DNA of 41,357 nucleotides from a virus, in IMG/VR virus record IMGVR_UViG_3300033149_002390, positions 1-41,357 of that record. One strand, given 5' to 3'. Of the stretch, positions 7,413-9,508 are shown piece by piece. Below the pieces are notes generated by a model. The model saw nothing but the letters and a program-made list of their open reading frames with translations, did not search any database and was not told the DNA's origin. Position numbers and translations under genes: made by a program. Positions within the stretch are counted from its first letter, which is position 1. The number at the start of each line of letters is the position of its first letter.

Positions 7413-7586
7413 ATGTCAGAGTATCAGCGAAAGCCCAAAGTTAAATATGAAAGAATACGAAGACCTTGCCTAAAATGTGGTAGGATGTTTACGGCACAAA
7501 GTAGGTTTAATCGATTATGTTTGAAATGTAAACAGGAAAATGCTATGATGTCTGGAGTGAGGTGCGGACGGCTTACTTTGGCATAA
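7413..7586 (+). CDS. 57-aa zinc-ribbon protein
   Basis: 57 aa, starting behind AAAGGTG. It contains two CxxC knuckles (PCLKCGRMF and RLCLKCKQE, residues about 18-41) spaced 14 residues apart, with a basic N-terminus (YQRKPKVKYERIRR). This is the pattern of small phage and bacterial zinc-ribbon proteins that bind nucleic acid; phage Mu Com is a functional analogy only. It ends 4 bases before the first helix of the structured RNA at 7591, so the protein and the RNA may be partners. Too short for many gene finders. Confidence 0.7.
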   Translation: MSEYQRKPKVKYERIRRPCLKCGRMFTAQSRFNRLCLKCKQENAMMSGVRCGRLTLA

Positions 7587-7590
7587 GAAT

Positions 7591-7863
7591 ATGCGGGTGC
7601 GGACAAATTCTTTCCTCTATATCATCCTCAAGACATATCAACCCTCTGCGACTTGTCCAAGCCCGTATAATAGGGGAGCAAATGGATTTGGTTCGGCTAA
7701 AAGCTATGGATAGCAAGCCGAATACGTGGGTTCGACTCCCACGCTCTCCAATAGGCGTCCGAATGACAACTGAATATTTCCTTGACGGCTGTATGGTCAA
7801 GGCAGGTGAAATCAAGATTGTAGGCGAATTGCGGAGCAATATCGGACGCCTTAAGCTCCGCAA
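7591..7863 (+). ncRNA. Candidate structured ncRNA with embedded tRNA-like domain
   Basis: This stretch fills the whole gap between the zinc-ribbon gene and the ParB-like gene with abutting helices. Domain 1: 7591-7597/7662-7668 stacked on GGACAA/TTGTCC (7601-7606/7653-7658). Domain 2: the tRNA-like element 7673-7750. Domain 3: AGGCGTCCGA/TCGGACGCCT (7753-7762/7842-7851, 10 perfect bp) enclosing CCTTGAC/GTCAAGG (7780-7786/7796-7802), interleaved with TTGCGGAGC/GCTCCGCAA (7829-7837/7855-7863, 9 bp). Linkers between domains are 2-4 nt. TATAATA lies at 7666-7672. A 36-codon reading (7763-7873) overlaps domain 3; I judge structure the better explanation. No known RNA family is recognised with certainty. 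Confidence 0.7.
7673..7750 (+). ncRNA. tRNA-like element, tmRNA-style, with G3-U70 pair
   Basis: A 7-bp acceptor stem (GGGGAGC 7673-7679 with GCTCTCC 7743-7749) has a G.U wobble at the third pair, the alanyl-tRNA synthetase identity element, and discriminator A at 7750. The T arm GTGGG-TTCGACT-CCCAC (7726-7742) is canonical. There is no D stem and no normal 7-nt anticodon loop. Instead one long arm forms TTCGGCT/AGCCGAA (7692-7698/7716-7722) capped by GCTA/TAGC (7703-7706/7711-7714). The segment TGGATTTGGTTCGG resembles the D-loop analogue of tmRNA. CCA is not encoded. It could be a tmRNA-derived mimic, an aminoacylatable element or a structural module. Confidence 0.65.
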
Positions 7864-7881: not shown

Positions 7882-8643
7882 ATGATGTTGATAATTAGTA
7901 AGGATATAGCAGAGCTTAAGCCTGATGATAGGAATGCACGCAAACACGATAAGCGTAATCTTGAAGCTATAAGGAATTCGTTGGAGCGGTTCGGGCAGCA
8001 AAAGCCGATTGTAATTGATAAGAACAATATAGTTATCGCTGGTAATGGTGTTTATTTTGCTGCTAAAGAATTAGGGTGGAAAGAGCTAAATTGTGTAGTT
8101 TGTGAATTAGATGATTTGAATAAGATGGCGTATGCAATAGCTGATAATAGAACGAGCGATTTGTCAGAATGGGACGATATGATATTGCAATCAATTTTAA
8201 CTGAATTGTCAAATCAAAAAATTGATGTGCCGGGTTATAACGAATCGGAATTGGATAAGATTTTGGGTGATATAGATGAGCGCAATATTTATACGGATAA
8301 AATAAGTATGCCTGATTATGAGCCGTTAGGGATGCCGGTAGATATAGATGATTTGTATGATGATAGTAAGGCTCGTGAACTAATTGCTGAAATTGATAAA
8401 TCTAATATAAGTGATGAATTAAAGAATTTTCTGCGGTTAGCTTCATATCGGCATGTTAAATTTGATTATGAAAAGATAGCGGAGTTTTATTCGCAGAATA
8501 AAGATAATAAGTTAATCAAAAAGTTGTTTGAGGATAATGTATTGGTGATAATTGATATGGAAGGGGCGATAAGGGCTGGAATAGTACAAATCAGGGACGA
8601 GGTTATGGAATTGTTCAAAAAGGAATATGAAGATGAAAGTTGA
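7882..8643 (+). CDS. ParB-like nuclease-domain protein
   Basis: 253 aa behind TAGGAG. Residues 1-75 form a ParB N-terminal domain: NARKHDKRNLEAIRNSLERF then PIVIDKNNIVIAGNG and FAAKELGW, the fold found in ParB CTPases and in phage DNA-modification operons. The usual GHRR-type arginines after the AG are replaced here by GNGVYFAAK. Residues 76-110 continue as a helix (MAYAIADNRTSDLSEWDD) typical of phage ParB/Srx proteins. The rest is charged and helical. The next gene (glycosyltransferase) overlaps its end by 17 bases. Known ParB-TAGT neighbourhoods suggest a role in base modification, which is inference. Confidence 0.85.
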   Translation: MMLIISKDIAELKPDDRNARKHDKRNLEAIRNSLERFGQQKPIVIDKNNIVIAGNGVYFAAKELGWKELNCVVCELDDLNKMAYAIADNRTSDLSEWDDMILQSILTELSNQKIDVPGYNESELDKILGDIDERNIYTDKISMPDYEPLGMPVDIDDLYDDSKARELIAEIDKSNISDELKNFLRLASYRHVKFDYEKIAEFYSQNKDNKLIKKLFEDNVLVIIDMEGAIRAGIVQIRDEVMELFKKEYEDES

Positions 8644-9508
8644 TAAAGCGGGGAAAATAGAAGATTTTGCTATATTTGTTTTATCGCATAGGCGAGCCGA
8701 TAAGGTTTATACGTGGAATATGCTAAAAAAATACGGTAATAAGCAAGATGTTTATATTGTAATAGATGATAGCGACGATGAGGCCGATAAATATGTAAAG
8801 CGTTTTGGTCGAAATAAAATAATAATTTTTAACAAAGATACAATGCGTGGAACTTTTGATATGATGGATAATGATACAGCTAATACTGGTGTTGTTTTTG
8901 CCCGGAATAAAGTTTATGATATTGCTGAACAATTACAATTGAAATATTTTTTGGTATTAGACGATGATTATAGTAAATTGGAATTTAAGATGGATAATTA
9001 TGGACGGTATCATGCAGCTGGAAAGGTTGTTAAGGATTTAAATACAATAATAATTAAACTTGTAGAAGTTTACGAGAAGATGCCTGATTATGTTGTAACA
9101 ATAGCTATTGCACAGACAGGTGATTTTATTGGCGGTAGGGCTGGGGGTCTTGCAAGAACTTTTGCGATAAAGAGAAAGGCTATGAATTGGTTTATTTGCA
9201 GCCCGAAAAGGAGAGTGGAATTTATCGGGCGGTTGAATGAAGATGTAAATACGTATGTTGCAGATGGTATGAAGGGAAAGGTCTTTTTGTCGATACCTTA
9301 TGTTTCTTTACGTCAAAGGCTTACGCAACAAAATACGGGAGGTTTAACAGAGATGTATTTAGACATGGGGACTTATCGGAAGAGCTTTTATTCAGTAATA
9401 TGTAATCCGAGCAGCGTTAAAATCATTAAAATGGGGACTATTTATCCGCGAATACATCATTTTGTCCAATGGCGATATGCTGTTCCTAAAATTTTGCGAG
9501 ATGGATAA
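8627..9508 (+). CDS. TAGT/GREB1-type glycosyltransferase
   Basis: 293 aa. The GT-A-like features are FVLSHRRADKVYTW near the N-terminus, the IVIDDSDDE strand, a metal/sugar-nucleotide DDD in FLVLDDDYSK (residues 112-114), then GDFIGGRAGG, MNWFICS, GRLNEDVNTY and a C-terminal GTYRKSF ... RIHHFVQW block. These match my knowledge of the TET/JBP-associated glycosyltransferase (TAGT) family, which phages use to glycosylate modified DNA bases and which is homologous to animal GREB1. The upstream ParB gene is coupled to it. I find no TET/JBP dioxygenase or hydroxymethylase in this genome, so the acceptor is unknown. A second possible start is ATG 8633. Confidence 0.8.
   Translation: MKMKVDKAGKIEDFAIFVLSHRRADKVYTWNMLKKYGNKQDVYIVIDDSDDEADKYVKRFGRNKIIIFNKDTMRGTFDMMDNDTANTGVVFARNKVYDIAEQLQLKYFLVLDDDYSKLEFKMDNYGRYHAAGKVVKDLNTIIIKLVEVYEKMPDYVVTIAIAQTGDFIGGRAGGLARTFAIKRKAMNWFICSPKRRVEFIGRLNEDVNTYVADGMKGKVFLSIPYVSLRQRLTQQNTGGLTEMYLDMGTYRKSFYSVICNPSSVKIIKMGTIYPRIHHFVQWRYAVPKILRDG

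Follow-up and report, generated by a model that had tools for sequence, protein, structure and literature searches.

The window analyzed here—that is, the whole 41,357-base virus contig—carries genes for phage terminase, portal, head, and tape-measure proteins, and no tRNA genes were found in it. A short element with the architecture of a tmRNA reduced to its tRNA-like domain lies within a co-directional stretch of genes, its nearest neighbors being the small ORF at 7413-7586 and the gene for a ParB-like protein at 7882-8643. Searches with the ParB-like, TerL, and glycosyltransferase proteins returned no close relatives of the window phage. The glycosyltransferase, encoded at 8627-9508, belongs to the TET-associated (TAGT) family, and DNA methyltransferase genes are located near both contig ends (392-1216 and 40337-41260), a combination suggesting that the DNA of the window phage may be modified.

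The preliminary description of the locus had reported a 7-bp acceptor stem with a G3-U70 pair, a discriminator A, and a T arm, joined by one long arm, and all of these parts were located at the site in both the sequence and the fold. The acceptor strands GGGGAGC and GCTCTCC form seven base pairs, with G3 opposite U70, and the minimum-energy fold (-32.7 kcal/mol, z -4.21, equaled by 0 of 200 shuffles) is exactly the acceptor/single-arm/T-arm structure listed in the table. The missing D stem, which had been taken as a tmRNA-like trait, is indeed absent, and the D-loop (AAATGGATTTG) is of the tmRNA type, being closer to a tmRNA start than to a tRNA start. CCA is not encoded in the window element, the discriminator being followed by ATA. 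Pairing is also found in the two flanks: upstream, 7590-7669 contains a stem of imperfect 17-nt arms (z -2.69), and downstream, perfect 10-nt arms lying 79 nt apart (7753-7851) enclose position 7763, where an ORF of 36 aa may begin.

Table. Positions of the mini-tmRNA and its parts in the window, with the sites in Streptomyces phage Tomas
Feature	Position	Strand	Remarks
Whole element, tRNA-like-domain-only tmRNA (mini-tmRNA)	7673..7750	+	78 nt including discriminator A
5' acceptor strand GGGGAGC	7673..7679	+	G3 = 7675; alignment pairs 1:105 to 7:99
tmRNA-type D-loop AAAUGGAUUUG, without D stem	7680..7690	+	family form AAUGGUUUCGAC
Single arm, short P2-like stem GUUCGGCU / AGCCGAAU	7691..7723	+	
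Asymmetric A-rich internal loop	within 7691-7723	+	
Cap hairpin inside the single arm	7703-7714	+	4 bp
T arm GUGGG-UUCGACU-CCCAC	7726..7742	+	
3' acceptor strand GCUCUCC	7743..7749	+	U70 = 7747; then discriminator A 7750
Tomas sites	L211 2976-3056; NC_070781.1 97147-97421		

In the window, ARAGORN reported neither a tRNA nor a tmRNA, and Rfam models at gathering thresholds gave no match. Regarding the covariance-model check proposed with the preliminary description, the tRNA model RF00005 did not match the element, and the tmRNA model RF00023 matched it at 38.5 bits (E 1e-15), below the curated cut-off of 47 bits. That cut-off was exceeded by 47 of 48 relatives, each giving one single match of about 65-83 nt that covers model positions 1-374 with ~300 of these positions deleted, such that the entire message domain is absent; the full-length tmRNA of record G049 (418 nt) served as the positive control. 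When one relative (L148) was aligned to RF00023, identity was seen at GGGG, UGG.UUCGAC, GGACG, and the T arm. A message-like region, resume codon, tag frame, and pseudoknots are absent from the 78-nt element, and no further tmRNA match was found elsewhere in the window record. An ordinary or armless tRNA was ruled out, with the D and anticodon arms absent and both ARAGORN and RF00005 negative, and so was a two-piece (permuted) tmRNA, with both acceptor strands in one RNA and no gathering match to RF04321 or the clade models in the window.

What is present at the locus is, then, a complete tRNA-like domain without a tag frame in a phage genome, as in CDS-less (TLD-only) phage tmRNAs. Relative to standard tmRNA (ssrA, RF00023), the family shares the acceptor G3-U70, the D-loop GG.UUCGAC without a D stem, the GGAC preceding the T arm, and the T arm itself, and RF00023 aligns end to end with it; the family differs in lacking the message, the resume codon and tag, and the pseudoknots, and the window member falls under the cut-off. 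Judged from its sequence—that is, from the RF00023 match with the message part deleted, the covariation, and the G3-U70 pair (the latter two described below)—the element is a message-less tmRNA comprising the tRNA-like domain only, and this identity is secure. The initial label of a mini-tmRNA-like element with an alanine identity pair was thus well chosen.

Viral contigs were scanned with a pattern in which a short gap separates the tmRNA D-loop from a T arm, yielding 88 stretches that, inspected singly, were mostly the same kind of RNA with a few tRNAs; a strict pairing filter on the pattern loci left 55 distinct relatives. The pattern scan together with blastn against named phages provided 61 further distinct sequences of the same architecture (62 with the window), so that the proposed search in other phages revealed a family spread over dozens of unrelated phages. 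A covariance model, R1, built from 37 relatives from other phages and with the window excluded, matched the window element at 66.5 bits (E 3e-15), indicating that the resemblance is not due to chance. Over 864 kb of other tRNA-rich phage DNA, obtained as background with a T-arm-only pattern that retrieved mostly tRNA-bearing contigs, the best R1 score was 38.7 bits; on reading, the top two background matches fall at the 3' ends of phage tmRNA genes of the ordinary kind, and tRNAs score lower. The window stretch itself had no match among named phages. Named carriers of the family are Streptomyces phages LuckySocke, GiJojo, Alone3, pSt2308, and BRock and Stenotrophomonas phage Jojan60. The mini-tmRNA is unannotated in all named-phage records fetched, and in Jojan60 it is partly overlapped by an annotated 'hypothetical protein'.

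Among the 62 aligned sequences, paired cells amount to 95.2% (65.9% when shuffled), double-changed cells number 370 (~108 when shuffled), and the covariation score is 0.716 (0.147 when shuffled and <=0.106 with the structure slid), all values biased towards the model to which the alignment was fitted. On a plain MAFFT alignment, RNAalifold recovered double changes in 14 of 20 pairs. Compensatory change was observed in all eight P2-like pairs and in three of the five T-stem pairs, and it is through such changes that pairing is kept across the wider family. The family covaries strongly, a sign of selection at the RNA level.

Such covariation bears on the question of whether the element could be what is left of a host tmRNA gene, as a decaying relic or an attachment-site copy. 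Phages integrate at tmRNA and tRNA genes, and the divergence of the window member would suit a relic, as would the cases of TClif and Yeezy, in which only the 3' acceptor/T arm is matched and adjoins a tyrosine integrase. However, the window element keeps its complete 5' acceptor, D-loop, and P2, no integrase was seen among the window proteins scanned, P2 covaries at every pair across the family, and gene neighborhoods unrelated to one another contain this same reduced form. A relic is therefore considered extremely improbable, and its attachment-site form was rejected on the grounds of the complete 5' half and covarying P2, unlike in TClif and Yeezy.

The G3-U70 pair was found in 62 of 62 sequences under a search pattern that fixed G3 and left the 3' acceptor strand, including U70, free. 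The discriminator A is likewise present in all 62, while acceptor pairs 5 to 7 vary freely. U70 occurs in 55 of the 61 distinct raw pattern matches, the other six being tRNA-like or unrelated by eye. The invariance of the alanine signal beside freely varying pairs suggests that charging is under selection, and since a pure SmpB sponge would need no G3-U70, it further points to more than titration. The same signal could be expected if the RNA donated alanine to a non-ribosomal reaction or acted as a decoy for alanyl-tRNA synthetase alone, an enzyme for which a minimal acceptor/T-arm RNA suffices. Such a role is nevertheless very improbable: the neighbors read include no identified gene for an aminoacyl-tRNA-dependent transferase, and neither the conserved tmRNA D-loop nor the GGAC linker that precedes the T arm would be accounted for.

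Conservation extends to the loops and the single arm. In the D-loop, the putative SmpB platform is kept: A10, G13, and G18 never vary, U11, G12, U15, and U16 hardly do, and the window has all seven. Most members came from one pattern in which the D-loop and T loop were partly fixed, and conservation in these columns may be overstated. The window D-loop (GGAUUUGG) is of the GG.UUCGAC type, with C17U common to 11 others and A19G to one other, and this variant, used as a pattern of its own, had no match in viral contigs. In the single arm, most members retain the A-rich internal loop and the CC...GG cap (A29 in 57/62, C33 in 51/62, and G42 in 47/62), with four shorter members (L125, L140, L142, and L168) lacking the cap. 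A C follows the discriminator in 57 of 62 sequences, and the window is the sole sequence with an A there. With UUUGG for UUCGAC, no CCA, and 38.5 bits against RF00023, the window member is divergent and could be drifting.

SmpB was detected in none of 50 virus records and none of five complete named phages, whereas the positive controls were detected; contigs of family members are often fragments. Any SmpB acting with these RNAs must, for the records tested, come from the host. Within the DNA available per locus, a tRNA lies within 3 kb at 12 of 56 loci and at none of the other 44. The neighboring genes fall into several unrelated sets, the largest comprising 13 loci, and no partner gene common to the whole family was found in the gene neighborhoods. 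This varied context without a shared partner points to a self-contained RNA reliant on host partners. At seven loci (L138, L143, L160, L163, L178, L190, and L203), the upstream gene ends in a TAG whose G is also G1 of the element, so that processing at the 5' end would turn the mRNA of that gene into a non-stop mRNA, and at two others (L128 and L204) an upstream TAA directly abuts the element; a similar arrangement is the smpB-ssrA overlap in Carsonella (PMC4131195). That several relatives abut the upstream stop codon exactly, and that the element lies between co-directional genes, would be in keeping with a processing signal acting in cis, whose tRNA shape would mainly offer RNase P and 3' processing a cut point separating phage mRNAs. 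A cut point, however, requires neither an invariant G3-U70 nor a tmRNA D-loop, making this explanation quite improbable.

The preliminary description had held that such a phage RNA would be new, which proved incorrect, as the kind has been published: Mycobacterium phage DS6A encodes a tRNA-like-domain-only tmRNA (PMC4131195 Table 2; PMC11915505). Furthermore, as related in these two articles, Mao et al. (2009) found that a DS6A-like tRNA-like-domain molecule strongly inhibits E. coli tmRNA, and the account in PMC4131195 describes the inhibition as independent of alanylation ('whether or not chargeable'). The DS6A molecule is likewise phage-encoded, barely more than a tmRNA tRNA-like domain, and without a tag reading frame; it is one published phage case, in contrast to the 62 distinct sequences here, and was compared by its published description. 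In a tmRNA census, only 9 of 97,179 entries are 'standard, no CDS' (PMC11915505). Mitochondrial tmRNAs without a tag frame (RF02544), known from jakobids (PMC11915505, citing Jacob et al., 2004), and plastid forms of ~65 bp have also kept the tRNA-like domain and lost the message, but the mitochondrial genes are mostly permuted, and the SmpB partner of the organellar forms is nuclear-encoded in the same cell rather than supplied by an infected host. Full-length phage tmRNAs, known from mycobacteriophages such as Bxz1 and Wildcat (PMC4131195), and the two-piece tmRNA of methylophage Melnitz (PMC9004378) are further known systems; they are also phage-borne, but have a message domain and could tag, which the window element cannot. 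No paper on a phage family beyond DS6A was found in our literature search, which is not proof of absence. As far as this search shows, the breadth of the family, its conserved P2 cap, its invariant alanine signal, and its members in cultured Streptomyces and Stenotrophomonas phages are new, and the window element is a divergent addition to the kind known from DS6A.

Trans-translation is found in nearly all bacteria, and a phage-borne tmRNA that is unable to tag poses a puzzle. In tmRNA, alanylation is directed by G3-U70, SmpB binds at the elbow formed by the D-loop and T loop, and ribosomes stalled at the end of an mRNA can be entered by such an RNA once it carries alanine together with SmpB and EF-Tu. 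By analogy, the mini-tmRNA is probably alanylated, binds host SmpB and EF-Tu, and blocks or diverts host trans-translation. We infer the following course: the RNA would be transcribed and cut from the transcript of the tailed phage by host tRNA-processing enzymes, receive its CCA from the host CCA-adding enzyme, be charged with alanine through G3-U70, and be bound by host SmpB at the elbow and by EF-Tu. The charged mini-tmRNA would compete against the host's own tmRNA for SmpB and EF-Tu as well as for the A site on stalled ribosomes, and, on accepting a nascent chain, would offer no resume codon, so that tagging could not follow. The net effect would be an inhibition or diversion of host trans-translation during infection.

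Alternatively, the alanylated mini-tmRNA together with SmpB might be a productive, message-free rescue RNA that takes the nascent chain in stalled ribosomes. The peptidyl-RNA would subsequently leave the ribosome and be hydrolyzed, freeing the ribosome and an untagged peptide for the phage. The invariance of G3-U70 favors this possibility by implying that charging and peptidyl transfer matter, and tag-less mitochondrial tmRNAs co-occur with a mitochondrion-targeted SmpB and are thought to be helpful there (PMC11915505). The seven TAG/G1 overlaps, where excision would create a non-stop mRNA in cis, are also in its favor. Nevertheless, the sole reported experiment on a similar molecule resulted in tmRNA inhibition, and rescue of this kind, including the release that follows the transfer, is regarded as unlikely. 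Moreover, no release activity is known, which also counts against it.

Inhibition or diversion of trans-translation is preferred over message-free release on account of that reported inhibition of E. coli tmRNA by a DS6A-like molecule, interference with trans-translation having already been raised in the preliminary description. Whereas the reported inhibition works without charging, all sequences here keep the charging signal, and this conflict is the most interesting point. From the invariant signal, charging seems to belong to the function of the RNA, a feature that simple titration of SmpB would not predict. More broadly, and tentatively, there may exist a widespread family of ~65-83 nt phage RNAs with their own P2 cap that, alanylated and acting with host SmpB, serve as an anti-trans-translation agent or a message-free ribosome-release factor. 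If so, a strategy hitherto known from a single phage would be general, and, should the family be active, an RNA of 80 nt would let phages of many unrelated groups switch off or redirect ribosome rescue. The cultured carriers named above make the family directly testable.

A point against inhibition is that some phages, such as those of record G049 and Tomas, carry a full tmRNA, indicating that phages are not uniformly helped by inhibition. Apparent 3' tRNA-like ends of full or permuted tmRNA genes were also seen in L217, L219, L033, and L064 (human-gut phages, Synechococcus phage S-CAM1, and other phages), those in L217 and L219 bearing no such annotation. Among the records searched, a full tmRNA beside a mini element occurs only in Streptomyces phage Tomas, in which the full-length tmRNA is accompanied by a degenerate mini-tmRNA (43.8 bits) located 9 kb away in a tRNA array. 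The Tomas pair may show one route by which a mini element originates or decays.
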